45,814 nt of DNA, from the IMG/VR virus record IMGVR_UViG_3300047284_000529, positions 1 to 45,814 of that record; one strand, written 5' to 3'. This document shows positions 18,828 through 40,572 of this stretch, piece by piece; position 1 is the first letter of the stretch; each line of letters starts with the position of its first letter. The DNA is from a virus. The position numbers were made by a program, and so were the translations under genes. The notes beneath the pieces were generated by a model. It did no database searches. It worked only from the letters and a program-made list of their open reading frames with translations, and was not told the origin of the DNA.

Positions 18828-18835
18828 TATTTATT
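18828..18835 (-). promoter_or_regulatory. Possible late promoter (AATAAATA, one mismatch)
   Basis: The minus strand reads AATAAATA, one base from the T4 late box, in the short gap before the cupredoxin-protein ATG at 18809. It overlaps the stop of the upstream YHYH gene. A start about 6 bases downstream would leave a leader of only ~12 bases, so the call is tentative. Confidence 0.35.
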
Positions 18836-20427: not shown

Positions 20428-20435
20428 TATTTATT
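20428..20435 (-). promoter_or_regulatory. Weak late-promoter-like box (AATAAATA)
   Basis: This octamer is one mismatch from TATAAATA and lies across the stop of the giant gene. It is only ~10 bases from the YHYH-protein ATG at 20418, which leaves almost no leader. It may be a chance AT-rich match. Confidence 0.2.
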
Positions 20436-23400
20436 CGTCATTGAATATTTGAACTGGGCTAAACGCTGCCAACACTGTGGCACCAGTTTGAACCGATAGA
20501 ATTGCAGAATTACTATAAACTGGAATGCAACCAATAGCTGTTATCACAACTCTATATTCGTCTTCATTATCAATTTGTTGTGTTGGTGATGTAGTATAAG
20601 TTGCTTGATTGGCTCCAGGAATGTTATTCCATGTTGTAGTTGCATAATCTTTCTTCTGCCATTGATAGCTAAGAGTAGATGTATTATCTACCGTTGCAAC
20701 GACAGTAAACGATGCAATTTGACCTTGACTTACAGTTAAATTGTGTGGCTGAGATGTGATGTTAATAACACCAAGATCAATAATAATTGGATTTCCATCT
20801 TCATCGATACCTTCTCCAGCTAGTAAATCAAATCCATTATTAATAGGAGCACCAACAGGAGATTCGAAATCATCAGGAACTGTAGTTTCAACAGATACTA
20901 CAGGTAATGAATATCCGATACCAGAAGATTTAACATCAATACGAGAAACACCAACTAAAGCTTTAGCTCTACCATTAAATCCTGTTGATGAGATGATATC
21001 AACTTGTGGTCTTTCTTCATAACCACTTCCAGAAGAAGTAAGAATAACTTCTTCAATACGACCCTTAGTAATTTGAGCTATAGCTAAAGCATTTCTACCT
21101 TTAACTGTTCCCGTATATTCAAATGTAGTCAATGAGTTCGAAGACTCAATAAGTGCTACTGTTCTATTTCCAGTTTCACCTTCAATCTGTAGAAGATCCC
21201 CAGCCTCAACTGGTGGAATAATGTCTGCAGATACAACGTCAGCATCAGAACCAACATATGAGAATGCAACGAAAGTAGATCCAGCTCTAGGAACTTCAGC
21301 AAATATAATTCTAGAACCAACTAACTCAAAGCCAACTCCTGGTTCTTGGAGAACACCATTGACAGAAACAATAATATTATTTTCTGGTCTAATGGTATTA
21401 GATTGAACACCATCAGTTAATGTTAGTGAGTAGAATACACCATTCAACTTTAAGTTGAATGAATTTCTAAGAGAGTCAAAGTCAAATGATATATCATCGA
21501 GCTGCCTTAACTTACCAACATAGAATCCAATGAATTCTGAGTTAGCTGATGGAGGCTCAGTAAATTGAATTTGATCTGAGAATGCAGTAAATGCATTATT
21601 ACCACCAGGAGGTTGTAAAATACCATTTACAAACACCAATAAGTGACCAGCTGGATCTGGGAAGTATGGTTGACCGTTCGCAATCGATAATTTAAATGTT
21701 GTCTGAGAACCATCAAATCCACGGAAATATCTAGAAACTCTTGCCATCAAGTCTTTTGCTGTAGCTACAGCAGCAGACCATCCATTATTACCAACAACAG
21801 TCATGTTGTCATAAAATTCACCTCTTACATCTTGCAGCCAAATTGTGGAATTGTTTCCAAGTTTATCAATTTTTACTACCTTACCATAAGAAATTGCATC
21901 TGTTCTATCAATTCCTGAAATTAGAGAGTAAATTACTGGGAAGTTAGATCCAGCAAATTTACCAACAAAAACTCCAGGTGTTAGAAGATCTTCAATAGTT
22001 GCTTCATCACTTACATCAATAGCAGAATATTGAACATCCGCAATATAAAGATCGTGTATACCTTCTAATGGTCTATAATCATATTTTGTAACTGTTGCTT
22101 TCCAACCAGGATTTTTCTTAACTGCTCCTTGTAGAAGGAATACCTCATCCCCTGGATTATATGTAGCTGCAATACCAGTATCTACTACGTTATTAGAAAT
22201 TGATAATTTAATTATTTCAGTTCCATTAATGTAGTCACCTAGAACTAATTCTGTAGAGCTATTATCATACATTACTAATATTTTTTCAGTTATAGAACCA
22301 TATACAACTTCACTTACATTCCATGATCCATTTACAGTTTCTACATCTAAAGTTAATTTACCACCAACAGTAGATACGATGCTTCCATAAGAAGGCATGT
22401 AATTGGAAATTGTAGCCTCAACCGAATCTTCTTCTTTGAAAATTACATCACCTGCGACAAACTCACCCATGAATGGATTTATCAACATATTATTGCTTAC
22501 AGAAGAAATTGTTGCAGTAGTTCCAGTTTCTAAACCTTCAATAATATTTCCAACTGATATCGTTCCAACAATATCAATCAAATTGATATATGTTGAGCCA
22601 TTGGTTTCATAAACTACCCCTCTATTAGTTGTTGATCCTTGAACAACGACAGTTTCCCCATTTGCAAACCCAAAGTTTTCTGGAACATTGGAAATTACAA
22701 ACTTACTATAAAGTTTTACAATCTTAGCTTTGTTGTAAGTTACAAAAATCAATTCACTATGTGCATCACTAGTAGTTCCGTAAATTACGTCAGCGGGATT
22801 AAATCCACCTGAAATTGGAGTTGGGGTCTTACTTCTATCACCATTGTATGTTGCAACTCTCTCAATACCAGTTCTTCTGGAAATTCTTAATTGCTGAGAT
22901 GCATTGTTTGTATTTCCAATATTGAAAGGTCTATCTTGAGATTTTATTTCAGGCTTAATTGTAAACGAAGATGCAGTTACATTTGTAACATAGAAATAAT
23001 CGTTAGCTACTAACGATGTAATTGATTCACCTAAAGGAATATATTCTAATATATCACCAATTACAAATTTATGAGTTCTATTGATCGTTGATCCAGTGGA
23101 AGCAACGTCGCTAGAAGCAATGAAAGTTACAGAATTTGTAAGAGGTAACTTGCTATATCTCAATGAATAATCATAAAGATTGAATAATGATCTTAATTTA
23201 AATTCTAAAGTTTCAATATCCAGCAATTCCATCGATATTGGATATTTTTCATTAATATCAAAATTATCTGGAAATACCCAAGATGGCTCAAATGTTATTG
23301 GTGATGGGTTTGGAAGTGTTTGATTACATGCACTCAAAGTCAGAGTTTCAATACTATCTAAGTGTGCTAGCAATCTAGTTCTATTGATATTTGCGAATGC

Positions 23401-26400
23401 AATAAAATTGCCCTCACCATCAAACCAACTGTTAATATGTTTGATTGTATTTGCATTACCGCCAGTAACCAAATCATGTCTTATTGACTTAATAATTTCA
23501 TCTGCAAAATCAACGGTTCCAGTATAGGATGGATTATTTAATAGAACTTGGGCATATGACTCTTCTCTGATGTAGCGGTCATTATTATGAATTAGGCGTG
23601 ATGCATTCTTTTCGGTTCTTCCTGCGGGAACCAATGTCTCAATCATAGTATCAAATAAGATACTAATTGCAGATCTTACATTATCGCAAGTGTATTCTTG
23701 ATACTCTGTATTACCAGAATATGGTAACGTCTTTGTGATAGATGTGAGATAGTTTACATTATTCTCTGCATTTTCTACAGTTTCAATTAAAATATTAGAA
23801 AGAGTAAATACTGCACTAATCACATCTGCACAAACTTGACCCCAAGATGGAGCAGATGTGTCATATACAACTGTCACATCTCTCTCTACACTTCCAGATG
23901 AATACTGAACGGGCCAGATAGTTGGAAGAGTAAATGGTATAGTTCCATTAGTAATTGAGATAGGATTATTGATAGTATCCGTAATTACTGACATTAAGCT
24001 AGTAATTGACGATGCTACAGCCTGACAAGTTGGATTTTGGGTATCTAGAGTAGGAACAGGAGAATAGAATGTTTGTGTTATACCATGAGTTCCCTGAACA
24101 CTAATGGTAGTATTTCTCATTACGCTAATAGCCAAATCACGAGCCTTATTGAAAATCCAGATAGATTCTGCCGCTTGTGATGTGATGTGCTGTAAATTAT
24201 TTGAAGAATTTACATACTCATTTGCAGCATAGAATACCCAATTATTTCCACCATACTGAAGATTAAAGACTAATGCCTTTAAGACATCCTTAACATCATC
24301 AACACAATTTTGACTTCCACCAGGAATTACTAATCCTGGATATTGTTGTGTTCCTAAGTATACAGCTTCATTTGCAATAAAATTAATATTCTTTTCAATA
24401 ATTCCTGCTGCATCGAGATGACTATCAGATACTGCATTTCGCATGTAGGTTTCAACAGGCTCATTTTCATTTCCTCTGATGTTGTCTCTACCAAATCCAT
24501 TTCTTATAGTTACTGCAGCAATGTCACGAACTAGCTTAAATACTTGCTTAGTTGCCTCAGCTTCAGATTCAATATATAATAATCCATTATCTTCTGGATC
24601 AATATACATTGATGCTGCTTCATATGTTCTAGAATTTCCACCGAATCTAAGATCGTGGATCATTGCATCTAGAATATCTTCAACATCATCAGTGCAATTA
24701 ACTCTACCACCAGGAACTTCAAAAGTATGATACTTAGTGAAGTTCTGCATGGTCAACACAGCTTCTTCTGCAATAACTTTTTTATTTCTCTCTAGAGCAT
24801 TAGCTGCATCGATGTATAGATTATAATTAGAACGTGATGGATCATAACCTTTAGGATCTACAGTAATTGTTGGATCTCTATAAGGCTGCTTAATAGTATA
24901 TGCTGCTGAATAATAATCATCTTGATATGTAACTGGTGTTCCAGCAGGATATACTTCACCTTGTGCCGATAATAGATTGTTTATTGCCTTCAGAGTTAAG
25001 AATTTAGTAAATTCTAATGCATCTGACATAGCAAGCAATTCATCCTCAACCAATACAACATTTTCATCTTGATCAATATAGAAATCAATTGCATTATTGG
25101 TTGCCGAGTTTCCACCAGTTATTATATCTGTAATTATAGCTGGTAAGATATATTCTCTAATATCTCTAGCACATTTACCAGGGAGACCTGGCATATTTAA
25201 TTTATCTTCATTGACGCTTCCTACAGTTACTGTATAGCGATCTTCTAACCAACCAACAACTTCATCAGCAATGAAGTCTCTATTGAGCCAAATTAAATCA
25301 CCAGCATCTCTAAATCTATGCCCAGTTGGAGCTAGATGATCAACAATAATATCTCCAAGAGCAATTATTTCATCAAGTATAGTTTGTGATATGCTGGTAG
25401 TTAAAATTCCAGGAACTCTAAGAATATTTGTATACTCTCCTTCCAGTGGATCCGTGTCTGCTTTTTCTAAAAGCTCAACACATAATTTTACAGTTTCTCT
25501 CCAAGCATAAACAGATTGTAATAATTCATTTGAAATATATTCGACAGAATTATTTCTATTAATATAGCCTTTAGCTGCAATTATGCTATTGAAATTACCA
25601 CCATACTTAATATCGGATATTATGGCAGGAAGAATAAATTCCTTTGTATCACGAATGCAATAATCCAATCCACTTCCATATGAAGGATATGTGAATCCAG
25701 GATATCTATTTCTTAATCTACCAACGACTTCTTCTGCGATAAAATCTATATTCTTTTCGATAACAGAAGCTGCAATTCTATGGTTATCTCTGGATAAATC
25801 AACATCTTCAATTAGGATTATACTATTTTGTGTATCAATTGATTTGATAGTAGTAGATGATGCAGTTCTTCCACTATATTGAGCATATACTTCATGCTCA
25901 GCAAGAATGAATGGCTTGTTTGCAGCTAAACCAAATGATAATGCATCATCATCATTATCATATCCAGTATTTGGTGTGAAGTTTGCATTGTAATCCGCAA
26001 TACCTTTCTTGATTTGTATGTTACTCATGTAACCATACAATCCATTTCCACCATTAAATGCAGCACCAATAACAATTTGTTTATTTGAATAATTATTAGT
26101 ATCTGTATATGTTGTAGCTGCTACAGTTCCATTATGATAGAGTTTTAATACCCCAGAGCTTCTTACTAAAGCAATATGCTTCCAAGTATTAATAGTAACT
26201 GCAGAAGATAACTGAATTAATAGAATACCAGAATAGTATACTTTTAAATCTGCATTATCTAATATAATGCGAAGGGCAGTATCACTAGCACCACTAGTTC
26301 TAGTATCAATTAGAGTTTGAGTTAAATTATTTCTAGAAGTTCTATACCAGAATTCAATAGTAAAATCAGAAGATGCGCCAAATGCTACTCTATCACTTGA

Positions 26401-29400
26401 TGGATAACTTAAATATTGAGCGCCAGCAGAAAATGCAAATGAACCAGTCGCTGATGGTGCAATATTTTTTGAAGTTGTGACACCAACATTAGTAATTAAA
26501 CTATTAGTGATGTATTCATCCTGTGTATATGAACCAGAAATATTTTTAGTGTAAATCCACTTGAAAGCAGTATTCACACCAATCACCGAAGCTGTAGCTC
26601 CAGAAGTAATACCTTTTATAGTATCTCCAAATGCAAATAATCCTGCAGATTTATTTGCATATGAAATCTTATTGCTTCTTATAGTTTCACCTTGTAAGAA
26701 ATTACCAGTCAATGAACCATACTTTACCTTAGTATTTTTAATGGTTTCTTTCTCATCAAATGCACCAGTTGCTCCAGTATAGATAACCTCAATATTTCTA
26801 GCCTCTTCAAAATCTAAGAAATCATCGTTAATTAATACTTCAGAATCATATAGTTTTGTTGGATTGATTACTGTTTTTGAGATATCATCGAGAATAATAT
26901 TTGGGTTTGTGGTAGAAACTAATCTTTGGAAGATTAATCCAAAGAATGATGATCCAGAACTAATTTCTACAGTATCAACTACACCATCCGTAACTGGATC
27001 TCTATATGGTGCAATAAATGTAACTTTAGCTGCAATTTTAGAACTTAGTGAATAAATGATATCATTTAATTTGATATTAAATTTACCAGATTCGAATTCT
27101 GCAGTTCCAGATGTTCTACTAATAGCAATTTCATTAGTAATTACACCATCATCCAGATTGGATTCTTCTACAATAGCAATATCGCCCTTAGTATTTGTTA
27201 TTGTTTCCTTAGTTTCTAGAATTGTTTTACTTGTTACTGGTGTTACCGATACTATATTTGCTTGGAATCCATATGCAGTTGCTAATAGAATTTCATTAGT
27301 TTGGAAATTGCCTTGAATTTCTACAACATCAATAGTAGTAGTTCCACTGTCAATGACAGTAGCTATAGATTCAGTAGTCAAGCCACTAACTTTAGCACCC
27401 AATTCTGGGAAAATGCCACTAATATTATCTAATTCAATTCTGTATATTTGAAGTTGATTGAATCTAGCAGTTCTGTATACAACTTTTGATGGGGGCTTAG
27501 GTGGTTCAGTGAAAATAATATTTGCACCATCAGTTACGAATGCTTGACCTGGAGCCTGAATAATACCATTCAATGTAATCATTATCTGATTAGCATTTGC
27601 AATTACTTGCTCACCCTCAACATAGATTGGGAATGAAGTTCTAGCTCCATCGAAGTCTAAACTAATATCATCAATTTTTTTGACAATTGAAGTCAGAATT
27701 TCCTCTGAAGATGTAAGTCTCTTCTTTCTGAAAAGAACTTCAGTGTTATTATATGTTGTATAGATTGGCTGCGCTGCAGCAAATGAAGTTATCTGATTCG
27801 AATTTGCATAGTTTGTAATATTAACTTGTTTTACTGCATCAGTAATTACTTTTCTACCAGAAATATCTTTACCACCTGAAATTTCTAACTGACCAAACAG
27901 CTTAAATCCAACGGGGTGATTATTTTCGAGAACGGTATTTTTCCAGTTGTTAATTGGAATACTTGATTTAATGATATACGAGAAGTTCTGATAGAAGAAC
28001 GAATCTTGAATTTTTTGAACAATTTCAGATGGCTTTCCAATATCATCGATAAACTTACCTGGAGTAGTGGTAATTGAATCGATATTCAACACACCTCTAG
28101 CATTGCTTAAGTTGTCAATAACACCAGATGCTCTAGAAATAATACCAGTTACCTTTTCACCTTCTTTCCAATCTCCCGTATAATTTTCAATCTTTAAGAT
28201 CTTAGGACCAATTTGCCAGCCACTATTCTTCGAAACATATCCAAATGCTGAAGCTGTTTCTACATTGTCACCTTGATATACCCTTTCACCTTCTAAGAAT
28301 CTAGAAGTTTCTACAATAGCTTCAGCTTTACCACCAAACACTTCTGTTAAGATTACCTGTCTTCCTGAACCTTGAGTTAAGAAAGTAATTGCGTTTCCAC
28401 TTAATGCATCAGCTAAAGTTAATGCAATTTTCAATTGGTCAGATTCTAATGAATTTTCATCACCAGAAATTGCATAGTATACCTGACCAGCAATAAGTGC
28501 AGTCAAACCAGCAGATGATGGCTGAGGTAAGATTCCAATTTCAGAACCAATATTTTCTGCTCTCAATTGAACCTCAGATCCAGTTGTAATACCATGAGGA
28601 ACGTTAAACTGAAGATAACCTAAGTCTACGTTAACAACATAGTTAAACTCAGATTTCAATGTAACTGTAGGCTCAGAAGAGTATCCAGATCCTGGATTTT
28701 TAATTAAAATTTCAGATAGTCTGTTATTTTTAACAATTGCTTCTGCTTCTGCTCCAGATCCACCACCACCTTCGATTACTACTACTGGAGCTGAACTATA
28801 ACCAGAACCTGGATCTATAATTTTAATTTGTGATAGAATTGAAGTATTGAATAATTGTAGGTTGATTGGGAATGTAATTTCTGGTTTTAATGTATAATCA
28901 TGTGAATATCCAAAGCCAAATTCATTATTCTTTAATTTCTTAATCTTACCGATATTCTTACCTGTTAAGAATACTGATGCACCACTTCCCTCATCGGGAA
29001 TAACTACATTCAATTCTGCACCAGAACCACTTAAACTAGGCCCTAAAATACCAGGAATGCCGTCGATATCGATAGATGCAAACGTATATCCCTTTCCAGG
29101 GTTAGTTACAAGAGCTTCAGTTATAACACCTGTGTCTAAAACAGGATCATTCGTAACTGTAATTTTTGCGAGTGCTCCCTCACCATCTCCAAGAATTGGA
29201 ACTTCATAGTATACTCCTGGAGCATATTCAGATCCACCACTTACAATAACTACCTTTTCAATTTGTCTAAATGATGCAATATCAGAGACGATAGGTAATT
29301 TTTGATAGAATCCACCACCATTAATTAACTTGATTGAATTGATAGGTCCAATAGCTCTTGGTGAAGTAGTAGAATATTTGGTAATCGGATTTCCATTTGA

Positions 29401-32400
29401 ATCATCTTGAACTATTGCGCTGCTAAATTCAGGTTCGTTTTCTAGTAAGAATTTGAACGAGAATACAGAAGGAACTTCGGTAATTCTAAATGTTCCTGCA
29501 TATGGTGTATCAATAACGTCGATAAACGAATTTGCACCAATAGGAGAGTTTTCTTCTGTTCTAGATGGGTCAAAATAATAAGAAATATTAGTAACTTCAC
29601 CTGCGACAATAAATCTTACAAATGGTTCATTTCCAGAAGAGCTAACTCCAGGAATACCACTTCTAATGATATTATTGAATGAATATTCGAGTTTATATTG
29701 GTTATCTTGAGAGAATGATAGATAGAATCCAAAATTTGAAGGGTCGCTTAGGTCAAAGACATACTGATGCCCTCTAACAAAGAGAAGTTTAGGATGCTTG
29801 GTGTAGAAGTTTACACTACTAATTACACCCTGAACATAATTGGGATCCTGAGATGCTATAGATCTTAGTTTAAACGTGAAATCTCTACTAGAAAATACCT
29901 CTTCAACAAAGAATGATCCGTTAAATTGTGCGGTTGAGAATCCTTCTACAAATAGAATATCATTCTTCTCATAGTTATGACGACTATTGGTTGAAATATA
30001 AAGAAGATCTGTTCTATCTGAATCAATAACCTTTACATCCTTTTCTAAAAGAACACGAACAGAAATACTCTTTACTTTATCTAATCCACTTACTCGTATT
30101 ACCTTTTCAGTATCATCATTTGGCGCAAAATCTACAGTAATAGTATTTCCAATACTTACAATATCATTAGGTATAAAATTAGAACCAGAATATACTGTTA
30201 ATATTTGAACAATATAAACTCCTTCAGAATATGGCTTAAATCTTGTATAATCTGCATAAGTTGTTGATTGACCTTCAGGATAAGTGAAGTCATTTAAATC
30301 AATATCGAAATAATTTGCAGTTTCAACAAATGCCCAAGTCACAACACCATCCGTTACTGTTCCTGTTGTATGCGTTGGTGGAATAGTTCCTCCAGTTCCT
30401 GCACTTTGCGCCTCATAAATTTTACCATCATTAAATACACGATTTCCAACAGAATATACAGCAGAAGATGACCACAATTCTTCAGTTCTAGCAACAGTAA
30501 ACGTTGCTGACATCTCATTGACGTTATTTGCCGAAGATCTTAAGTATTTTGTAGTGCTAACTGTATCAAAAGTTGATCCTGCAGGGAATACTTTACCTAC
30601 ACGATAAGTAACTTGATTTTCATCATTGACCGTTGGAGCATCAACAATTGTTCCAAATACTGATACTACTTTTTGACCATTAATTATAGAATACTGTTCT
30701 AGTATTGAACCTTTTGTGAATAATGCATTTTGATTTAGAGTTAATTCTCTAACATTATCAATTTTAGATACAGTAGAATCTTTAATATAGAACTTCTCAA
30801 TAACTTTTGGTGTAAGCTTTAACTTTTTACCTAGAGGTGATGGGATAGTTGCAGTTTTACTATCAAAAATTTCAAATTCACTTGAAAGCGAATATATTCC
30901 AGGAACTGCTGTAGAAACAACATCATTATAGTCTAAGCTTTGTAATCCACCAGCACCAAGTTCATATGAAGCTATGTTTGCACTAAAATTAGTTACAGAT
31001 AAAGCATTAGTGTCATTTTCAATAATTGCAGTATCAATATCTAAATCTGAATTAGTTAATACCCAAGTTCCAACTTTAGTATGCTGTCTATCAAATTTGC
31101 TAATAATTACATTACTCTTTTGAGTTGTTAATACAAAAGAACTTGTTCTTGGTGTGAACGCAACGGATTCATTATACATTGCATATGGGGCAACAACTAA
31201 GTCATCTGCTCTACCAATCCAAGAATTTGCAGATGTTGGCGTTGCAGGGCCAAAGAATCTAACATCATTTACATTTACACTATTTGTAGTTGTATACTCT
31301 ATAACTTTTGAACCATTAAAGTATACTCTATAGACATAATTGCCCAAAGATGGATTTGTTTTTTCTAATGTAAATAAATTGAAATTGTTGACACCAATAG
31401 TGTTCCAATACGATGTTGAAGTGGAACTGACCAATACAGTATTAACGTCTGCAGAATTTGCAGAAATTAGCTGAATTTTTCCATAATTTGCGCTAGTTGT
31501 GTCGCCATCAACAACAACTTTGTATTTAATTACATCAGATACTCCAACACTTATTACCTCTGGCTTATGATTTATTGCATGACGAGCAGATTCCATCTGG
31601 AAGAATCCTTCGACCGTCCATTCTTTGATTTCTGCTGTATTAATATCTGCAAGAGAAAGTGAATTCTGTGCAGTAGTTTTTACTGACTTTCCACCAAACT
31701 TAAAGAATGATGAATCATATTCTACATTAGAAGAATTGAACCATGTTGTAACCCCTAGACTTCTCTTTGATGAATCCGTAGGAGTAGCAATATTTGCAGT
31801 ATCATTAAACTCATAGTATGCCAGTTCTTTAGATATTTCTTTTTCTGATGTGATAATAATATCACCAGAGTTATCTACAGAATGAGATTTTGCAATTAAT
31901 CCTGCAAAATTTGGTGTTTTAATTGTAGATTGATTTAGAATTGTTCCATCATACTTAATTGTAGTAACTGCAATTTGCTTATCTACAACTCCATAATTTA
32001 TAGAAGTTACTAATGCAATATTACCAAAGATATCTGTTTTGATATTTGCATGTTCAATTGAGTTGTACGCAAGAGAAGGAGTAAACGACTTACTCCAAAT
32101 TAAAGTATTTGGATTTTCTGGATTAAATTTAAATACTACTACTTTTTCACGCTTTTGTGTGCTGCTATTGATAGCATTAAATGTGACATAATAATCCCCT
32201 TCTTCATCTTTTACTATTCTTGGATTATTTACGACAGTTGCATTAAATGCAACACTATTCATGTATTCAACTTCAATATTAGCTCCATCATAGAATATTT
32301 TTCCTAATAGTAAGGTTCCAAGTGTAACTGAAGTTCCAACGAATAAGAGTTCATTATCGGTCAACCAAATAATATCATTTAAACGCTCAGAACCAGATGT

Positions 32401-35400
32401 TGAAGCAATTTTTCTCTTTTCTTTAACATCACCATCATTGTTCATCTGGATGATCCACATATCATCGGGATTTAATGAATTAGTATCAGTATATCCTCCG
32501 ATATAGACATTTTTATCCTGATCCAGAACAACACTAGTTACATAGTCTCTTCTGGTTAATCCAGAAATACCAGCAATTTCTTTTTTCCAAACTATAGATC
32601 CAATTGGATTGTTAGCAAAATCTACTGTTGATTCATATTTTGCTACAAATACATCAGGATTATAGTTTAAATTAGTTACGTTTGGATAGGTTTCACCTAC
32701 AACATAAATCGTATCATTTTCTCCTGGATTAGTATCTACATATAATTTTTTAAAGAAGCACTTTTTGTTGCCAGATTCTGGAACAGCAGGTATTAATGTT
32801 CTCCACCAAATTAATTTTCCTTGATCGTCATATTTTGCTAGATAGCTAACAACATTACCATTAGTTTCATTAATGTTTCCACAAACATATAACTCACGGT
32901 TTAATGTGACTGTAGAATCAGCAACTTCAAATTTACTTCCATTGCTTTCTTTTAAGTCAGAGAAGAAATAACGAGCTTTTTTGTATACCTGAGGATGGGT
33001 AACTCTTATTTGTGGTGGATTTGTAGTGCTATAATTATTACCAGAATTGATAATATCAACAGTTCTAATATTACCAGTAGATTCTAAATTAATTTTAAAA
33101 TCTGCATCTTGACCTTGAAAAGTTATTAATTCATATACTGGTGGGATGTCATCAATATATCCAACACCTTCCTGGGTCACTTCAATTGTTTCGATGCCAG
33201 ATACAACTTTAACTTTGAATCTCTTGTCTGTTGCATCAAGCAATGGATATGTATCAACAATAACTTCATCACCAACTCTTAACTCATGCTCTCCTTCAGT
33301 TGTGATCGTTCCATATGGTTGATCATTTACTAAAGATTTGTTATACGAAACTACTTTATTACCAACAATAGACTCGATTTCTGCAGAAGCACCGAAACCT
33401 TGAGTATCTGTATTGTCGAAGAATAAAATATCACCAACTTGATATGATACCCCTGGATTTTCAATAACAAATCCATCAATTTTTGCATCTTCAAATTTAG
33501 TTGTAGTTTCTACTTCAATATCAACTTGAGATGCCAAGCTAACGGCTGGGAAATAATCAAAGATTTGTAACGTTTGCTCTTCGATTAATACTACAATATC
33601 ATCTTCTTCTACTGGAGAAATTACACCATCTCTGTTCAAATCTTCTAATTCTAGAATTATTGCATCTCCAGTTTCCAGTGTTAACCCATCTTGTGCTCTA
33701 TTTGGCTGTCTTTCAATATCAATGTCAACATTTTCATATGGATCTCTATATCTAACAACACCAGTTGGGATGTTTTCTTGGATTGCACTTTGGCTGAAAT
33801 TCCAATCATCTGGTAGTGAATTGTAGTTAGGACCTAAAATATATGGGAATACTGGTAGACCTGCTTCAGAAGCATCAATAGTAATGAAGTATGCATAAGT
33901 TCCTTCTGGATATTCTGGAGTTTTACAGAATCTTCCATTATATTGGTCTAAATCACCATATTGGAATCTAAATTCATAGTCATTAATAAATGTTCCAGCT
34001 GGATACTCACTTAATGAAGGACCATCAATTCTGGTTGGTTGTGGATTAGTATCAGGATCATATATTAAATTCTCCTTTATTGCATAAGAAGAATTCATCC
34101 TCTTTATGCCTTGAGTTGGTTCAGTAGGATTTAAATATGCATATGGGCCATATATTGGATTTCCATCAAATGCCCATCCGATAATTGGAGAATGCTTATA
34201 GTTACTAGATACTTCTTTGAATCTATTGGTTTGTTGATCTAAGAATACGTTATCACCAACAACATATCTCAGTTCCTTAGGATCGGAAATATGTGCATAT
34301 TCCCCGCCGTATTGATTATTATAACCAGAGAATACATATCCTCTTGCCTTATCATACTTACCATTTAATAAGTATTCTTGGTTTTTAATCCAGCTAAAAA
34401 TTTCAGCCTCAAAAGTAGCAGACTGACCAACAGCTTCTAACCTAATAGTAGTGTTCCCTTGAGTATATCCAATACCCTTATTAGTAATTTGAACACTGAT
34501 TACCTTTCCTTTATCTTCACCTACTGTTCCAATAATTGCCTTAGCCTGAGCACCAAAACCATCACCATTGATAATAACATTTGGTGGGCTAGTGTAACCT
34601 TGACCAGAATTGATAATAGCAATTGATACAATTCTGCCATTGATAATTACAGGTTGAGCTAGAGCATCTTCACCAGATGAAAGAATAATTGATGGTGGAG
34701 AAGTATATCCTTGACCTTCACTTAAAACTTCAATTGACTGAACGGGACCTCTTACTTGAGCAGTAACTTCAGCACCACTTCCACCACCACCAGTGATTGA
34801 AACTGTAGGTTGTGAAGTATATCCAGATCCAGGATTTTCTACTAATACTCTGCTAACTCTACCATTAGTAATTACTGCAGTAGCAGTAGCTCCAGCTCCA
34901 CCACCACCAACAATTGAGATAAGAGGGGAAGATGTATATCCAGAACCACCATTAACAACATCAAAGCTATACAGACTGCCGTTAATAGTAACACGAGCCG
35001 TAGCTCCAGATCCGCCACCACCTACAATACTTAGATTTGGAACAGTTCCTGCATCATAACCTTGACCTGGGTTAACAATAGAAACTGAGGTGATACCACC
35101 AAATAAGACCTTTTCATTTGCCTTATAAGACCAGACTGAAACGCCATTAATTAATGATGCAATTGGTCCTGGTAATATCTCTCTTCTATTAGATACTGTA
35201 AGAGGTTTTCTTGGGAATCTATATAATTTTCTTTGGTTACCAGGGATTAATGCCGACCCAACAAAAGGACCTACTTTATAATTAGGCAATCCAGAAGCTG
35301 CAATATAAACATACTCAGCATTGAAAAATGCATTTTGTATATTTGTTGTATAATCTGAGATGGTATTGTTTATTGATAAAACATCTGACTTACCACGATT

Positions 35401-38400
35401 TAAGTCAACAGAAACTAAAATATTTCCCTGAGGGGCAATGTTAGATGGTTGTGGGATTTGATAGCTAAAAGTAAATTCGTCAAGTCTTGAAGTAACAAAG
35501 AACGTTCCATTGTAAATTACAGGATTTGCACCATATATTGTTACACTATCTCCAACCAATAGACCATGAGGATTTGAACATACAACCGTTGCAGTTTGTT
35601 GATTTGTTCCAACATCAATACTACCAGGAGAGATGCTTACTACTCTAACTAATTTCTTAACATTATACAGCCAAGTTTGTAACCTTTCATCAGTCGCAGA
35701 TGATCCTAATTTTGATACAGTTAGTTTATCTCCAGGGAGATAATATGAACCAGTATCATCCAAAACTGTGGTATTTGCTTCAGCAATACCTAGGATACGC
35801 ATTTTAACTTCTGATGAAGTTCCTCTATTAACATAAACAAAAATATCAGAATAGATAGGAGTTCCTGGATCCCAATCTTCAACCAATCCATTCTCGGATC
35901 TGGTGCATTCAATAAATTGGTTTAATGTTTTTTCTTTATACTGAACTTCCTCTTCGTTATCTATTAAGATAGTTCCGTTTCTAGCTGGCCAGCCGATAGT
36001 AGAATCGACTGTAATTATTTGATCATCTACACTTAATGGCTCAACTAATGTAGTTTTATATGGAATGACAAAATTACCAACTAATGTCTCTTCTGAGATT
36101 GCTAATTCATAAATTGTAGAATTTTCTTGATTGATAGCAATTACGTTTTCTACCAATGCCGAAGCATCTTTTACATTCTGATCTACTTCACTATCATATT
36201 GAATCAATTGCGATTCTTTGATGTTTACGGGATCACCAGAAATTACTTCAACGCGAATGATGGTATCGATAGACCAAGTTGCAGCAGATGGTGAGATGAT
36301 TTCATCTCTAGGATATGCAACATCGGCATTCTCACCAAATAAGATTTTGAATATGAATTGAGTTGAAAGCTTGGTGCCCTTTGAAGTATAATATTGACGG
36401 ATATTCTTAATAATCTCTGCAGGATTAATAGAACTAATGTCAATATTTGAATTTGGAATATATTGATTTAAGAATTTCTTTAAAAGATGCTTTACAAATA
36501 ATGAGTCTAAATTAGTTACTGTTGATCCTTGAGGATGTGAGCTTTGGGTTAAGTCAGACTCTTTTTTGAATACCTGATGACCATTTAGGTCAAAGCTGGT
36601 TACACCACTTACTCCTCTCTTACATCCAACTAAAGCAGAAGGTTCGTAATTTTGACCATTTTCAATAATCTTAAAACCAGTAACCTCATTGAAACCAACT
36701 TCACATGAAGCCTTTGCTGCTGATGGAGATGCGATGAAAATGGAAGGTGGTTCAGTTTCACTATAACCACTACCAAAATCTAATACATTAATATCAGTAA
36801 TGCGACCATTAAAAATAGTAGCTGCAGCTTTAGCACCAGTTCCACCAATAGGATTGCCATTGGTATCTTTTCTGTTATCTACAATGTAAATTGATGGAAC
36901 ATCTTCGTATCCCTCTCCACCAGTTAATAACTCAATATCAGTAACGTTGCCATCAACAACTCTTACATCTAAAACCTGAGCCCCAACAGGATCAATAATA
37001 GATACTCTAGGAATAGAGGTATATCCTCTTCCACGATTGATTATATTGATAGAAACTACAGTTCCATCTGCACTAATTACAGCTTCAGCTAAAGCTCTTA
37101 TGCCACCTTCTGGTGCAGGATCAATATAAACTGCTGGTGGATTTTTATATCCAGAACCACCAGCAATTACTTGAATAGATCCAATATTAACTCTACCTAA
37201 AGAATCAATGGTCGGCTTTGATATTTTTGCACCACCAGGATTTCTAAAAGTTATAGCAGGGATAAAATCATATCCACTACCACTATCTTCTACATTTAGC
37301 GTAGAAATTTTTCCAGTAACATCATCAACTTCTAGTGAAATTCTAGCAGCAGTTCCATTAGGATTTGTTGGAGGTTCAACTACAACATATGGTGGGTTAT
37401 ATGAGTTATAACCAAAACCACCATCAATAAGTGCTACTGATTTTACTCCAGATACTAAAGAAGTTGCTGTCGCACCAAAACCACCGTTATTTGTTCTGGA
37501 AATTGTTACCTTAGGCGTAAAATTCAGATCATATCCAGAGCCACCATTCTTTACTATTAGTTTACCTAATCTGTGATCGGAAGTAATTTCTGCAATTGCT
37601 TCTGCGCCAGATCCAACAATTGGTGTTGCAAATTCTATAGTTCTGATATGAACTGTTTCTGTATTGTATACATTATTTTTGAAAATGATTAAATTCTCAA
37701 AAATGCTAAAATCTATGTAAGGTCTTTGTAATACACCATTTCTAATAACAATAGCAGAAATTTCTGAAATAATGCTATATGGTTGGGAATTTAACTTAGT
37801 AGAATAAAATTTAGTATTATTCTGAGTATTATTGTCTAATGTTCTAATAGTGGAATCAGAGAAACCAATTAAGTATATAATTTTGGTAGAACCTTCTGAG
37901 TCTGTTCCTACTCTTTCTCTAGGTGCAACTGCAAATCTAATTTTATCTCCTTCGAGGAAATAATCAACATTAGGAATTAATGTTTCACCATAGATTGTAA
38001 CAATAAGGTGCTCTTCACTTACTGGAGTTACTGGATTACCTAAGAGTCTAAGATCAAATAAATTTTTTGTTCCATCTAGTTGTAGGAAAATATTCTCTAG
38101 TTCTTGCTGTCTCTTTAAATATTCAGCAGAGCTAATTCCTGGCGTAATTACAACTTCAGGACCTTTTGAGATTCTATCATAATAGATAACTTCATCATCA
38201 ATTATGACAGTTCCATCAAATTCTAAAAATCCACTAACATTTTCTACTTGAATAACATCATCATAAACACCAACATCATTTAAAGTTGTTGTTGTTGCAT
38301 TTAGTGTTTTGAAGTCATAATTTTCGACATCAAGTAGGCTCAATAGGTTATTGAGTATATAAACGGGCTTACCTACTTTCTCTTGTGATTTGTAGTAATT

Positions 38401-38496
38401 TTTTAATAATTCTACAAACTGTCTATCTTCCTCTCTAATAAACTGAGGAATTTGTGACTCAACTCTATCGGAAATCTTAACACTATTTGTTAGCAT
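20431..38496 (-). CDS. Giant multidomain virion protein (6021 aa) at the gp7 position
   Basis: A single 18-kb frame encodes ~650 kDa. The N terminus (IPQFIREEDRQFVELLKNYY, then VYILNNLLSLLDVENYDF) looks like the start of large cyanophage baseplate proteins, and the slot after gp6 is that of gp7. In order I see: glycine-rich GxGY/GGGSGA repeats (~290-620 and ~1130-1350); a YHYH domain (~1390-1555, with FDGNPIYGPYAY and GDLDQYNGRFCKTPEYPEGT); an EF-hand-like loop (DLNRDGVISPVE, ~1618-1629); a propeller-like region of seven blade motifs (~1863-2479) with a LamG-like insert (~2220-2452); VNG-x2-Q-x-PG modules (~3610 and ~5585-5770); a second LamG-like domain (~4010-4180); five helical repeats (~4235-5058); and a C-terminal Ig-like domain (~5912-6005). 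It is probably an outer-baseplate fibre or adhesin. The gp7 link is positional, and I see no direct T4 gp7 similarity. Confidence 0.85.
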   Translation of the reverse strand: MLTNSVKISDRVESQIPQFIREEDRQFVELLKNYYKSQEKVGKPVYILNNLLSLLDVENYDFKTLNATTTTLNDVGVYDDVIQVENVSGFLEFDGTVIIDDEVIYYDRISKGPEVVITPGISSAEYLKRQQELENIFLQLDGTKNLFDLRLLGNPVTPVSEEHLIVTIYGETLIPNVDYFLEGDKIRFAVAPRERVGTDSEGSTKIIYLIGFSDSTIRTLDNNTQNNTKFYSTKLNSQPYSIISEISAIVIRNGVLQRPYIDFSIFENLIIFKNNVYNTETVHIRTIEFATPIVGSGAEAIAEITSDHRLGKLIVKNGGSGYDLNFTPKVTISRTNNGGFGATATSLVSGVKSVALIDGGFGYNSYNPPYVVVEPPTNPNGTAARISLEVDDVTGKISTLNVEDSGSGYDFIPAITFRNPGGAKISKPTIDSLGRVNIGSIQVIAGGSGYKNPPAVYIDPAPEGGIRALAEAVISADGTVVSINIINRGRGYTSIPRVSIIDPVGAQVLDVRVVDGNVTDIELLTGGEGYEDVPSIYIVDNRKDTNGNPIGGTGAKAAATIFNGRITDINVLDFGSGYSETEPPSIFIASPSAAKASCEVGFNEVTGFKIIENGQNYEPSALVGCKRGVSGVTSFDLNGHQVFKKESDLTQSSHPQGSTVTNLDSLFVKHLLKKFLNQYIPNSNIDISSINPAEIIKNIRQYYTSKGTKLSTQFIFKILFGENADVAYPRDEIISPSAATWSIDTIIRVEVISGDPVNIKESQLIQYDSEVDQNVKDASALVENVIAINQENSTIYELAISEETLVGNFVIPYKTTLVEPLSVDDQIITVDSTIGWPARNGTILIDNEEEVQYKEKTLNQFIECTRSENGLVEDWDPGTPIYSDIFVYVNRGTSSEVKMRILGIAEANTTVLDDTGSYYLPGDKLTVSKLGSSATDERLQTWLYNVKKLVRVVSISPGSIDVGTNQQTATVVCSNPHGLLVGDSVTIYGANPVIYNGTFFVTSRLDEFTFSYQIPQPSNIAPQGNILVSVDLNRGKSDVLSINNTISDYTTNIQNAFFNAEYVYIAASGLPNYKVGPFVGSALIPGNQRKLYRFPRKPLTVSNRREILPGPIASLINGVSVWSYKANEKVLFGGITSVSIVNPGQGYDAGTVPNLSIVGGGGSGATARVTINGSLYSFDVVNGGSGYTSSPLISIVGGGGAGATATAVITNGRVSRVLVENPGSGYTSQPTVSITGGGGSGAEVTAQVRGPVQSIEVLSEGQGYTSPPSIILSSGEDALAQPVIINGRIVSIAIINSGQGYTSPPNVIINGDGFGAQAKAIIGTVGEDKGKVISVQITNKGIGYTQGNTTIRLEAVGQSATFEAEIFSWIKNQEYLLNGKYDKARGYVFSGYNNQYGGEYAHISDPKELRYVVGDNVFLDQQTNRFKEVSSNYKHSPIIGWAFDGNPIYGPYAYLNPTEPTQGIKRMNSSYAIKENLIYDPDTNPQPTRIDGPSLSEYPAGTFINDYEFRFQYGDLDQYNGRFCKTPEYPEGTYAYFITIDASEAGLPVFPYILGPNYNSLPDDWNFSQSAIQENIPTGVVRYRDPYENVDIDIERQPNRAQDGLTLETGDAIILELEDLNRDGVISPVEEDDIVVLIEEQTLQIFDYFPAVSLASQVDIEVETTTKFEDAKIDGFVIENPGVSYQVGDILFFDNTDTQGFGASAEIESIVGNKVVSYNKSLVNDQPYGTITTEGEHELRVGDEVIVDTYPLLDATDKRFKVKVVSGIETIEVTQEGVGYIDDIPPVYELITFQGQDADFKINLESTGNIRTVDIINSGNNYSTTNPPQIRVTHPQVYKKARYFFSDLKESNGSKFEVADSTVTLNRELYVCGNINETNGNVVSYLAKYDDQGKLIWWRTLIPAVPESGNKKCFFKKLYVDTNPGENDTIYVVGETYPNVTNLNYNPDVFVAKYESTVDFANNPIGSIVWKKEIAGISGLTRRDYVTSVVLDQDKNVYIGGYTDTNSLNPDDMWIIQMNNDGDVKEKRKIASTSGSERLNDIIWLTDNELLFVGTSVTLGTLLLGKIFYDGANIEVEYMNSVAFNATVVNNPRIVKDEEGDYYVTFNAINSSTQKREKVVVFKFNPENPNTLIWSKSFTPSLAYNSIEHANIKTDIFGNIALVTSINYGVVDKQIAVTTIKYDGTILNQSTIKTPNFAGLIAKSHSVDNSGDIIITSEKEISKELAYYEFNDTANIATPTDSSKRSLGVTTWFNSSNVEYDSSFFKFGGKSVKTTAQNSLSLADINTAEIKEWTVEGFFQMESARHAINHKPEVISVGVSDVIKYKVVVDGDTTSANYGKIQLISANSADVNTVLVSSTSTSYWNTIGVNNFNLFTLEKTNPSLGNYVYRVYFNGSKVIEYTTTNSVNVNDVRFFGPATPTSANSWIGRADDLVVAPYAMYNESVAFTPRTSSFVLTTQKSNVIISKFDRQHTKVGTWVLTNSDLDIDTAIIENDTNALSVTNFSANIASYELGAGGLQSLDYNDVVSTAVPGIYSLSSEFEIFDSKTATIPSPLGKKLKLTPKVIEKFYIKDSTVSKIDNVRELTLNQNALFTKGSILEQYSIINGQKVVSVFGTIVDAPTVNDENQVTYRVGKVFPAGSTFDTVSTTKYLRSSANNVNEMSATFTVARTEELWSSSAVYSVGNRVFNDGKIYEAQSAGTGGTIPPTHTTGTVTDGVVTWAFVETANYFDIDLNDFTYPEGQSTTYADYTRFKPYSEGVYIVQILTVYSGSNFIPNDIVSIGNTITVDFAPNDDTEKVIRVSGLDKVKSISVRVLLEKDVKVIDSDRTDLLYISTNSRHNYEKNDILFVEGFSTAQFNGSFFVEEVFSSRDFTFKLRSIASQDPNYVQGVISSVNFYTKHPKLLFVRGHQYVFDLSDPSNFGFYLSFSQDNQYKLEYSFNNIIRSGIPGVSSSGNEPFVRFIVAGEVTNISYYFDPSRTEENSPIGANSFIDVIDTPYAGTFRITEVPSVFSFKFLLENEPEFSSAIVQDDSNGNPITKYSTTSPRAIGPINSIKLINGGGFYQKLPIVSDIASFRQIEKVVIVSGGSEYAPGVYYEVPILGDGEGALAKITVTNDPVLDTGVITEALVTNPGKGYTFASIDIDGIPGILGPSLSGSGAELNVVIPDEGSGASVFLTGKNIGKIKKLKNNEFGFGYSHDYTLKPEITFPINLQLFNTSILSQIKIIDPGSGYSSAPVVVIEGGGGSGAEAEAIVKNNRLSEILIKNPGSGYSSEPTVTLKSEFNYVVNVDLGYLQFNVPHGITTGSEVQLRAENIGSEIGILPQPSSAGLTALIAGQVYYAISGDENSLESDQLKIALTLADALSGNAITFLTQGSGRQVILTEVFGGKAEAIVETSRFLEGERVYQGDNVETASAFGYVSKNSGWQIGPKILKIENYTGDWKEGEKVTGIISRASGVIDNLSNARGVLNIDSITTTPGKFIDDIGKPSEIVQKIQDSFFYQNFSYIIKSSIPINNWKNTVLENNHPVGFKLFGQLEISGGKDISGRKVITDAVKQVNITNYANSNQITSFAAAQPIYTTYNNTEVLFRKKRLTSSEEILTSIVKKIDDISLDFDGARTSFPIYVEGEQVIANANQIMITLNGIIQAPGQAFVTDGANIIFTEPPKPPSKVVYRTARFNQLQIYRIELDNISGIFPELGAKVSGLTTESIATVIDSGTTTIDVVEIQGNFQTNEILLATAYGFQANIVSVTPVTSKTILETKETITNTKGDIAIVEESNLDDGVITNEIAISRTSGTAEFESGKFNIKLNDIIYSLSSKIAAKVTFIAPYRDPVTDGVVDTVEISSGSSFFGLIFQRLVSTTNPNIILDDISKTVINPTKLYDSEVLINDDFLDFEEARNIEVIYTGATGAFDEKETIKNTKVKYGSLTGNFLQGETIRSNKISYANKSAGLFAFGDTIKGITSGATASVIGVNTAFKWIYTKNISGSYTQDEYITNSLITNVGVTTSKNIAPSATGSFAFSAGAQYLSYPSSDRVAFGASSDFTIEFWYRTSRNNLTQTLIDTRTSGASDTALRIILDNADLKVYYSGILLIQLSSAVTINTWKHIALVRSSGVLKLYHNGTVAATTYTDTNNYSNKQIVIGAAFNGGNGLYGYMSNIQIKKGIADYNANFTPNTGYDNDDDALSFGLAANKPFILAEHEVYAQYSGRTASSTTIKSIDTQNSIILIEDVDLSRDNHRIAASVIEKNIDFIAEEVVGRLRNRYPGFTYPSYGSGLDYCIRDTKEFILPAIISDIKYGGNFNSIIAAKGYINRNNSVEYISNELLQSVYAWRETVKLCVELLEKADTDPLEGEYTNILRVPGILTTSISQTILDEIIALGDIIVDHLAPTGHRFRDAGDLIWLNRDFIADEVVGWLEDRYTVTVGSVNEDKLNMPGLPGKCARDIREYILPAIITDIITGGNSATNNAIDFYIDQDENVVLVEDELLAMSDALEFTKFLTLKAINNLLSAQGEVYPAGTPVTYQDDYYSAAYTIKQPYRDPTITVDPKGYDPSRSNYNLYIDAANALERNKKVIAEEAVLTMQNFTKYHTFEVPGGRVNCTDDVEDILDAMIHDLRFGGNSRTYEAASMYIDPEDNGLLYIESEAEATKQVFKLVRDIAAVTIRNGFGRDNIRGNENEPVETYMRNAVSDSHLDAAGIIEKNINFIANEAVYLGTQQYPGLVIPGGSQNCVDDVKDVLKALVFNLQYGGNNWVFYAANEYVNSSNNLQHITSQAAESIWIFNKARDLAISVMRNTTISVQGTHGITQTFYSPVPTLDTQNPTCQAVASSITSLMSVITDTINNPISITNGTIPFTLPTIWPVQYSSGSVERDVTVVYDTSAPSWGQVCADVISAVFTLSNILIETVENAENNVNYLTSITKTLPYSGNTEYQEYTCDNVRSAISILFDTMIETLVPAGRTEKNASRLIHNNDRYIREESYAQVLLNNPSYTGTVDFADEIIKSIRHDLVTGGNANTIKHINSWFDGEGNFIAFANINRTRLLAHLDSIETLTLSACNQTLPNPSPITFEPSWVFPDNFDINEKYPISMELLDIETLEFKLRSLFNLYDYSLRYSKLPLTNSVTFIASSDVASTGSTINRTHKFVIGDILEYIPLGESITSLVANDYFYVTNVTASSFTIKPEIKSQDRPFNIGNTNNASQQLRISRRTGIERVATYNGDRSKTPTPISGGFNPADVIYGTTSDAHSELIFVTYNKAKIVKLYSKFVISNVPENFGFANGETVVVQGSTTNRGVVYETNGSTYINLIDIVGTISVGNIIEGLETGTTATISSVSNNMLINPFMGEFVAGDVIFKEEDSVEATISNYMPSYGSIVSTVGGKLTLDVETVNGSWNVSEVVYGSITEKILVMYDNSSTELVLGDYINGTEIIKLSISNNVVDTGIAATYNPGDEVFLLQGAVKKNPGWKATVTKYDYRPLEGIHDLYIADVQYSAIDVSDEATIEDLLTPGVFVGKFAGSNFPVIYSLISGIDRTDAISYGKVVKIDKLGNNSTIWLQDVRGEFYDNMTVVGNNGWSAAVATAKDLMARVSRYFRGFDGSQTTFKLSIANGQPYFPDPAGHLLVFVNGILQPPGGNNAFTAFSDQIQFTEPPSANSEFIGFYVGKLRQLDDISFDFDSLRNSFNLKLNGVFYSLTLTDGVQSNTIRPENNIIVSVNGVLQEPGVGFELVGSRIIFAEVPRAGSTFVAFSYVGSDADVVSADIIPPVEAGDLLQIEGETGNRTVALIESSNSLTTFEYTGTVKGRNALAIAQITKGRIEEVILTSSGSGYEERPQVDIISSTGFNGRAKALVGVSRIDVKSSGIGYSLPVVSVETTVPDDFESPVGAPINNGFDLLAGEGIDEDGNPIIIDLGVINITSQPHNLTVSQGQIASFTVVATVDNTSTLSYQWQKKDYATTTWNNIPGANQATYTTSPTQQIDNEDEYRVVITAIGCIPVYSNSAILSVQTGATVLAAFSPVQIFNDE
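23320..25790 (-). repeat. Five degenerate helical repeats in the giant protein
   Basis: Five units of ~105-125 residues share a pattern of I..N..FIA.E.V, a cysteine-aspartate or aspartate step (YCIRDTKEF, KCARDIREY, NCTDDVEDIL, NCVDDVKDVL, DFADEIIKSI) and a GGN motif (SDIKYGGN, TDIITGGN, HDLRFGGN, FNLQYGGN, HDLVTGGN). A conserved helix follows. GGN positions are near 25605, 25115, 24645, 24255 and 23462. The larger spacing before unit five holds an inserted segment. The rest of the giant protein is mainly beta, so this predicted helical block stands out. I do not recognise the family. Confidence 0.8.
34440..35100 (-). repeat. Tandem GGGGSGA / GxGYTSPP beta repeats in the giant protein
   Basis: Seven or so units of about 35 residues follow the pattern V.NPG.GYTS.P.VSI.GGGGSGA.A.A.I.NG.V. 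A similar, more diverged array lies at about 36600-37640. The same unit occurs in the neighbouring 613-residue protein, in the gp8-like protein and in the right-edge protein. It looks like a building block for an extended beta structure. Confidence 0.8.
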
Positions 38497-38508: not shown

Positions 38509-40572
38509 CTAGAAACAAGTATCAATTTCTGGATACTCAAATGTGGTAGTTGGAATATCAATGATATTTATACCTCCAGGCTGATAGTTAAATGCATCAA
38601 AATTATTTGGATCAAATACTGGAACCTTGAAATCAGTTAATGTATAGTCTACTGGAGTTATATTTGGATTGAATAATGTTGGATCGACATCTCTAGGAAT
38701 ATCAATTCCACCCCCACTTGGTAATACGACTACAGGCAGTCTTGGAGTTCCATCAGGAGTGCTTGTCACTTTAATAGGACCTACGCACACTTCACCTGTA
38801 GAATAATTAACCGAGCCTACATTTGAATTTAAAATGATCTCATTTTCATCTGATATAGTAGCTAAAACTAAATTCCCCTTGCCGTCATCTCTGACATAAA
38901 CTGGCAATTGAAATTGAGAATTGGCTACAACAAATTCTTGAGTTACATCAGAAGCTGATAGATTTACTAAACTATCGAAAGCTGCAGATGTGTAATCTTC
39001 GGAATAAAATATTCCACTTTTTACTGTAGAGAACTTAGGAGAACAGCTACCACCTGAATTAGAACCCGAAAAATCTCCAGCATTAACAATAGGATTATTA
39101 AAGTTGATGCATTGTGAGAATGTAGTATTGAAATCAAATTGATCTAAATTTTGACCGAGCCTAATTTGAACAGTGGTGCCATTAATAGATGTATCGACAT
39201 TATTGACAATTCCACTTAAAGTAGATGAGTCTAATCTTCCACCAAATCTATTGGTAGATTCATTTTCATTAAATGTGTTTAATGTGTCTAACGCTTTAGT
39301 TCTTAATCCAGAGTTGTCTAACGTTGTTTTATTACTATCAAAGAATGGATATACATTAGGTAGAATGTAGAAAGATCTAGGATCTATAATTTCAGTTTGG
39401 ATAGATGCGATTGCATATTTTTCCAAAGAGTTCTTAATTCTTTTTTTGGTGGTTTCGTTTAACTTAGTTCCACCTTTATTTCTAATTGAAATGAAAACTT
39501 TTCCATATACTGGAGGATTTAATTTTTCTCCTCCAAAAGCTCTAACCGAAACTGCCTGAGGATATATTTGTGATGTTATGTATTCGTAGTCTGCTTCTGT
39601 AACTGCTCTATTTTGAGTGGTAAATGCTCTTGGGGCTCTATATTTTATAGATTCAATGCTTTCTCTCTCTTCTCCATCCTGAGAGGCATCAATAGTTGCC
39701 ATAGACACAGAATTTGGTGCTATAGCTCTTCCTAGATTATCTGTAATTACGCCAATATAATTGAACTTTACACAACCATTTGCGCTTGCTCCTTCAGTTC
39801 TAACATATTTCAATTGGATTAATTCACCACTGATTAATTTTCTTCCAATAATACCATCACCAAAAATTACGTTATATCTAAGATCGTCAGTTTCTTCTAA
39901 GAAATAAATTCTGGATGTGCTATCTAATGTAGTAATATTGCTTGCGAGTGAATACTGGTCAGACTGTGTTGATTGAACGTTTGGGCTGATAATTACCTTC
40001 AATAATTCGGTATCAACATTTTCAGATGGTATTAAGTATAAAAATCTATTTGGATCTGTTACAACATAACTATACTCTAATAAGTTACCTTGATAAATTA
40101 CAACTTTTTCGAATGAAGCAATACCAGTTTGTTGATCAACGGTTGTAACAACGTCGTCTAATAATGCAAAGGTATATGTTCCAAAATTATTAGAACTTAT
40201 AAAAACATCTCCCTGCTTTATAGTAACGAAAGATGGATATCTATCACCATCTAGAGAAGTTTGAACATCAAAGCGCACACAAGCCTTTGGTGCTTTAATT
40301 GATTTAGGAGTATAGTTTAATTGCTTAGCAATTTTTACAATATTATCTCTAACTGAAGCGGTTTCTAAAAATGCTTCATTTAATGCCATATTTGCATTAA
40401 ATGCGAGATAATATGTATTATAAGATAAAATATCAAGTAAGTATGATGCTGCTGAACCGTCAAAATCATAATCTGTGAATTCTTCTCTAGTTCTGAGATA
40501 AGAACGAATCGATTCCTTGATTTCAAAGAAATCAATTGCAGTTAAATTTGATGGAACCGAGACTTGTGCCAT
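38509..40572 (-). CDS. 6: Baseplate wedge protein gp6
   Basis: The 687-residue product matches gp6 of T4-like phages (T4 gp6 is 660 residues). Conserved stretches include DFFEIKESIRSYLRTREEF (~14-32), DILSYNTYYLAFNANMALNE (47-66) running into AFLETA, and FGDGIIGRKLISGE (237-250). The last is the segment shared with baseplate J-type proteins. gp6 dimers link the wedges into the ring that surrounds the hub and changes shape during sheath contraction. It follows gp25 with one base between stop and ATG and precedes the giant gene by 12 bases, the usual wedge order. The C-terminal ~80 residues are Pro/Asp/Asn-rich. Translation is likely coupled to gp25. Confidence 0.93.
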   Translation of the reverse strand: MAQVSVPSNLTAIDFFEIKESIRSYLRTREEFTDYDFDGSAASYLLDILSYNTYYLAFNANMALNEAFLETASVRDNIVKIAKQLNYTPKSIKAPKACVRFDVQTSLDGDRYPSFVTIKQGDVFISSNNFGTYTFALLDDVVTTVDQQTGIASFEKVVIYQGNLLEYSYVVTDPNRFLYLIPSENVDTELLKVIISPNVQSTQSDQYSLASNITTLDSTSRIYFLEETDDLRYNVIFGDGIIGRKLISGELIQLKYVRTEGASANGCVKFNYIGVITDNLGRAIAPNSVSMATIDASQDGEERESIESIKYRAPRAFTTQNRAVTEADYEYITSQIYPQAVSVRAFGGEKLNPPVYGKVFISIRNKGGTKLNETTKKRIKNSLEKYAIASIQTEIIDPRSFYILPNVYPFFDSNKTTLDNSGLRTKALDTLNTFNENESTNRFGGRLDSSTLSGIVNNVDTSINGTTVQIRLGQNLDQFDFNTTFSQCINFNNPIVNAGDFSGSNSGGSCSPKFSTVKSGIFYSEDYTSAAFDSLVNLSASDVTQEFVVANSQFQLPVYVRDDGKGNLVLATISDENEIILNSNVGSVNYSTGEVCVGPIKVTSTPDGTPRLPVVVLPSGGGIDIPRDVDPTLFNPNITPVDYTLTDFKVPVFDPNNFDAFNYQPGGINIIDIPTTTFEYPEIDTCF
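38565..38572 (-). promoter_or_regulatory. Possible late promoter (TATAAATA) inside the end of gp6
   Basis: An exact TATAAATA on the minus strand lies in the last codons of gp6, 69 bases upstream of the giant gene's ATG at 38496. It could give the giant gene its own late transcript. It also encodes part of GGINIIDIP, so it may be a chance match in AT-rich coding DNA. Confidence 0.4.

Follow-up and report, generated by a model that had tools for sequence, protein, structure and literature searches.

A LamG-type domain nested in the seventh blade of a predicted beta-propeller in the giant PHROG 701 protein of T4-like cyanophages

Described propeller systems and the cyanophage locus

Ligand-binding domains nested in beta-propellers are already known: the integrin alphaI domain, of ∼200 amino acids, is inserted in a seven-bladed propeller (PMC12422189). 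It has a vWFA fold and lies between blades 2 and 3, whereas our model places the cyanophage LamG domain described here within blade 7, in the link from strand B to strand C; the two are not homologous. In the sialidase of Vibrio cholerae, one lectin-like domain is inserted in the propeller chain. The passage of PMC8865650 that cites Crennell 1994 describes this protein as a propeller with dual lectin-like domains. It is a six-bladed enzyme with sialidase motifs, which are absent from the cyanophage propeller. The folds closest to the LamG domain, domain 4 of AbnA (a GH43 arabinanase) and the lectin domains of trypanosomal trans-sialidases, also occur beside propellers. In these proteins, however, the lectin follows the propeller as a fusion and is not nested in it, as is also evident from the aligned chain ranges. 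The closest propeller structure is that of CylK, a cyanobacterial Friedel-Crafts alkylating enzyme; its aligned chain carries no LamG domain at the blade 7 site, and the sequence profile of the cyanophage propeller finds no match to it. One cyanophage adsorption protein, the tailspike of the cyanopodophage Pan3 (9vyh), is likewise known to have a LamG-like fold; this phage belongs to another family, and the matched range of its tailspike shows no propeller nesting.

The nearest described relatives are the giant proteins of Kyanoviridae grouped in PHROG 701 (T4-GC969, SSM1_102 of S-SM1; gp101 of syn9), which share the gene, its position and the full-length family with the open reading frame studied here. 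None of the deposited annotations examined for these proteins describes a nested LamG domain. A limited literature search recovered no account of a LamG domain nested in blade 7 or of a cyanophage propeller–LamG head, and no structure of a T4-like cyanophage baseplate. Several tail-fibre genes of T4 have no recognisable homologue in T4-like cyanophages (PMC2984593).

The window analysed here is an IMG/VR virus record of 45,814 bases, which encodes a T4-like baseplate cluster on its minus strand. The cluster includes gp6 (38509-40572; PF21379, E 9e-18), a gp9/10-type protein (17313-18809) and gp8 (13891-15426; PF09215, E 1.5e-17). Directly downstream of gp6, and inside the gp25-gp6-gp8 wedge cluster, lies a giant open reading frame of 6021 amino acids (20431..38496, minus strand, as are the features described within it below). 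Its membership of PHROG 701 is indicated by a profile match across the whole frame (4219 and 2136 bits for its two halves) together with the position after gp6. Of 21 phage loci that were fetched, 20 share the order gp25-gp6-giant; the exception, that of P-RSM1, is truncated where its record stops. The S-SM1 orthologue, SSM1_102, labelled T4-GC969, directly follows gp6, and its product was found by mass spectrometry in purified virions (PMC3037559). The giant protein is thus a virion component, as shown for the S-SM1 orthologue, and because of its gene neighbours it probably belongs to the baseplate. A search of PDB sequences with the first 800 amino acids returned no match beyond one chance hit, and no T4 baseplate protein. 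Deposited records name the giant protein variously as baseplate wedge initiator, gp7, gp8, YadA or structural protein; the S-MbCM100 record conflicts with this naming by giving the name gp7 to the upstream protein of ∼1000 amino acids (42534-45545 in the window).

Predicted fold of the propeller and its insert

A preliminary description of the window, made from the sequence alone, had read seven propeller-like blades in this frame, with the last blade apparently interrupted by a LamG-like domain. All of the strings it quoted are present, in frame, in the giant open reading frame. We modelled amino acids 1801-2641 with AlphaFold2 from a 72-sequence alignment of the window and its IMG/VR relatives (pLDDT 86.4, pTM 0.81; the amino acid number is the model residue plus 1800). 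In the model, amino acids 1836-2468 form a closed seven-bladed beta-propeller, a ring in which each blade has four strands. The blades are more alike than their shuffled counterparts, with a mean pairwise score of 28.7 against 23.5 ± 1.1, a value reached in none of 300 shuffles. The Pfam family SBBP (PF06739) matches one blade of the window propeller alone, blade 3, at 22.2 bits (cut-off 20.5), and is matched by 19 of 46 relatives at E <= 0.01, with a best E of 1.1e-7. The seven blades that had been read from the sequence are therefore supported by the model, by blade similarity and by SBBP.

The propeller begins with an N-terminal strand, QVYKKARYFFSDLKE (32947..32991, aa 1836-1850; model strand 36-50), which acts as the velcro strand, that is, strand D of blade 7. 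Six blades follow: blade 1 (32791..32934, aa 1855-1902, model 55-102), with four strands in the model, blade 2 (32572..32763, aa 1912-1975, model 112-175), blade 3 (32407..32547, aa 1984-2030, model 184-230), blade 4 (32248..32388, aa 2037-2083, model 237-283), blade 5 (32077..32238, aa 2087-2140, model 287-340) and blade 6 (31918..32061, aa 2146-2193, model 346-393). Blade 7 is built from the N-terminal strand, from strands A and B (31831..31902, aa 2199-2222, ending in VDNSGDIIITSEKEI; model 399-407 and 413-422) and, beyond the insert, from strand C in the SNVIISKFDRQ region (31093..31125, aa 2458-2468, model 658-668). The post-insert strands span model residues 658-680, the last of them, a strand D with the sequence TWVL, being short and poorly conserved. 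The LamG/concanavalin-type domain occupies 31132..31827 (aa 2224-2455, model 424-655) and is, in the model, truly nested between strands B and C.

The assignment of strand 36-50 as the velcro strand and of strand 658-668 as strand C follows from VIA-align structural alignments, which begin before strand 55-63 and end past the insert: the match to solved seven-bladed propellers runs from model residue ∼41 to 671-673, spanning the LamG domain. The virginiamycin B lyase 2z2n aligns over 292 of 293 residues (2.6 Å, Z 28.0), WDR5 over 286 residues (Z 26.7), and CylK, the best structural match, over 354 residues (Z 32.7, 20% identity). It is these alignments that bear out the interruption of the seventh blade. 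We consider the whole arrangement, a closed propeller whose seventh blade holds a complete LamG jelly roll in its B-C loop, very probable on the model. The boundaries first proposed for the insert hold, but the propeller starts near 32991, about 80 bases earlier than the 32910 initially given; it ends at ∼31093 with strand C, or at 31057 if the weak last strand is included.

Predicted on its own, the LamG domain reaches a pLDDT of 93.8 and adopts a concanavalin-type jelly roll. Its nearest fold in VIA-align is AbnA domain 4 (5hon; Z 18.3, 192 of 206 residues, 2.9 Å), from a structure solved with an arabino-oligosaccharide, followed by the trans-sialidase lectin domains (Z 16-17) and the Pan3 tailspike (Z 16.1, 4.7 Å over 219 residues). 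Laminin_G_3 (PF13385) is matched by 64 of 72 family members, with a best E of 1.2e-13, and the family profile matches the solved LamG domain 4qvs at E 8e-6, so the type of insert suggested at the outset is upheld. The window copy alone falls below detection against Laminin_G_3 at E <= 0.001, being too divergent for a single-sequence Pfam match. Conservation within LamG is highest mainly at core positions that belong to the general LamG consensus, and marks no obvious binding site. Many Foldseek matches pointed to the binding domains of clostridial neurotoxins; we take this likeness to reflect the shared jelly roll only, and VIA-align ranks these domains under AbnA and the trans-sialidases. In S-CAM22 some 75 glycine-rich, repeat-like residues are inserted inside the nested LamG domain.

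Distribution and divergence of the module

A tblastn search with the propeller recovered 292 phage records, all of them named cyanophages or Synechococcus or Prochlorococcus phages, and no relative outside the cyanophages at E <= 1 among 50,697 phage records. IMG/VR holds more than 500 relatives. One scan of bacterial and archaeal genomes found two contigs with a cyanophage-type propeller, one of 188 kb in a Nonlabens assembly and one in a euryarchaeal MAG; these are probably cyanophage sequences that were co-assembled or binned.

All 258 fetched loci with a complete region carry an insert of 227-367 residues at the same site, flanked by an invariant [ST]GD before it and by the strand C motif K-x-D[KR] after it, the latter present in 258/258. 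Homologues without the insert, which had been proposed as a check, are absent from these 258 complete relatives, a sample gathered by a search that favours kin of the query and that an insert-free cousin could have escaped. Since every complete relative has it, the nested LamG domain appears to be a long-standing feature that these viruses have in common. Judged from the aligned sequences, the nested state is ancestral within the sampled family and not a recent interruption. BLAST alone had suggested that the LamG domain is confined to eight phage records; the multiple alignment showed that this was divergence and not absence.

Propeller and LamG distances are correlated (r 0.95), and the two parts therefore mostly travel together. 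The LamG domain is the more divergent, with a mean pair identity of 0.315 against 0.40 for the propeller, and it is also more gapped. Compared with the closest relatives (∼95% identity), LamG and propeller both show a dN/dS of about 0.03, indicating strong purifying selection; this comparison gave no sign of positive selection in LamG.

In S-MbCM100 the two parts have separate histories. Its propeller groups with that of locus L257 in the trees, and its LamG domain with that of L170. The AU test rejects the grouping of S-MbCM100 with L170 on propeller columns (p 2e-9) and its grouping with L257 on LamG columns (p 0.012), p-values that are optimistic because the groups were named after the trees had been seen. 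By these sequence comparisons, the LamG domain of S-MbCM100 differs in ancestry from its propeller, and as this holds in at least one lineage, the module appears to be exchangeable. A second uneven pattern is seen in S-MS29: it shares 54% of residues with WH25-B in the blades, 76% in LamG and 65% after it, and its branch has a length of 0.65 for the propeller against 0.12 for LamG in the respective trees; the test of its clade on propeller columns gave p 0.44.

Candidate functions and other domains of the giant protein

Conservation in the propeller is concentrated in blades 2-4. Among the 258 sequences, 25 non-glycine positions are at least 97% conserved, and 14 of them fall in aa 1946-2037, in blades 2-4: N1946, P1947, D1948, K1971, S1978, R1982, D1984, T2003, N2006, D2012, K2027, R2028, K2029 and E2037. 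The corresponding stretch of invariant polar residues (32386..32661), with N1946 P1947 D1948, S1978 R1982 D1984, T2003 N2006 D2012, K2027 R2028 K2029 and E2037, is 99-100% conserved in these sequences. Ten of the 14 lie in B-C or D-A loops or no more than two residues away from one, whereas K1971 and the strand of K2027-K2029 do not. These two types of loop conventionally make up the top face of a propeller. The remaining loop invariants (D2097, D2155, F2157, Y2182, D2208, S2210 and D2212) belong to bottom loops, mostly A-B turns of the repeated blade motif. Because the standard propeller layout puts the B-C loop on top, we infer from the model that the LamG domain projects over the top face, the same face as the invariant patch. 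The patch is the best pointer to function, as a candidate binding, docking or catalytic surface.

We prefer a reading in which propeller and LamG together would act as an exposed binding head, since it best fits a conserved face combined with an exchangeable lectin. All these phages would make one and the same contact through the invariant propeller face, its partner being either a shared host-surface ligand or a baseplate docking site. The LamG domain, which evolves faster and is exchangeable, would add a second contact, most likely with a cyanobacterial cell-surface glycan. The faster divergence of LamG, its exchange in S-MbCM100 and the presence of the orthologue in virions support an exposed head. 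The purifying selection acting on LamG argues against contact with the host, since a host-range tip would be expected to diversify. LamG folds can bind proteins too, or bind nothing. Receptor or glycan binding by the putative head, as the preliminary description had proposed, is plausible; its label of a fibre for the giant protein is tentative. We put binding to the host surface at a little short of an even chance; that the ligand is a glycan is more tentative. A fuller version, in which the target of the invariant face is a ligand shared by marine picocyanobacteria and a LamG cassette exchanged between lineages tunes the contact, much as an alphaI domain was added to the integrin propeller, is a rather unlikely scenario.

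The main rival is structural docking, which is somewhat less probable than the exposed head. Here the invariant surface of blades 2-4 would hold a conserved baseplate partner, and LamG would be a spacer or an intra-particle protein contact with no host ligand. A patch that is nearly invariant across 258 sequences is easier to reconcile with an internal partner than with a host that varies, and both the low dN/dS and the position of the gene within the wedge cluster are consistent with docking. The exchange of LamG between lineages and its faster divergence, however, fit an exposed position better than burial. Catalysis is a lesser rival and appears improbable. The top face would then be that of a lyase, a hydrolase or a CylK-like enzyme, with LamG as a carbohydrate-binding accessory, making the protein a depolymerase. 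The best structural matches of the propeller do include CylK and virginiamycin B lyase, Foldseek adds GH43, GH32 and sialidases, and the invariant R, D, K and E residues would fit a catalytic site. A propeller is a fold and not a function, however; its profile has no sequence match to any solved chain in the PDB up to E 10, and repeats of the sialidase Asp box (S/T-x-D-x-G-x-x-T/W) are absent from aa 1836-2480, so that the region does not classify as a sialidase or neuraminidase. That LamG instead forms a separate bead beside a ring closed without any strand after the insert, an outcome that the preliminary description had named as fatal to its reading and that the weak post-insert strand D might favour, is very improbable, as solved propellers align past the insert with near-complete coverage and the strand C motif is retained throughout.

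The conserved head in the largest virion protein of these phages, with its named invariant patch and exchangeable lectin-type module, is a concrete candidate for host contact.

Other domains are recognisable in and beside the giant protein. A YHYH domain (PF14240) lies at 33871-34314 (aa 1395-1542, E 2.9e-29), and a second one in the adjoining open reading frame of 527 amino acids (18835-20418, E 6.9e-36). Another LamG domain, with no recognised propeller around it, is found at 26011-26421 (aa 4026-4162; PF13385, E 1.2e-13).

Four to five helical repeats resembling phycobiliproteins occupy 24001-25782 (aa 4239-4832), with a weaker copy extending to 23404 (aa 5031). A profile of 25 repeat units, searched against 177,635 distinct PDB sequences, gave 93 matches at E <= 10 (best E 1.4e-4), and the best 60 of these 93 are all phycobiliproteins or proteins of that fold, two of the chains, from 8u0f, bearing the name bacterial fluorescent protein. 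The Pfam family Phycobilisome is matched by 10 of the 25 units. The aligned part covers the C-x-R-D bilin-attachment motif, whose Cys and Asp do not vary across the alignment; in the phage set, CxRD is present in 37 of 91 units. As judged from these matches, phycobiliprotein-like domains in a virion protein of phages whose hosts bear phycobilisomes would be notable in their own right. Every cyanophage giant protein in the set carries two to nine such units, loci that are cut short counting fewer.
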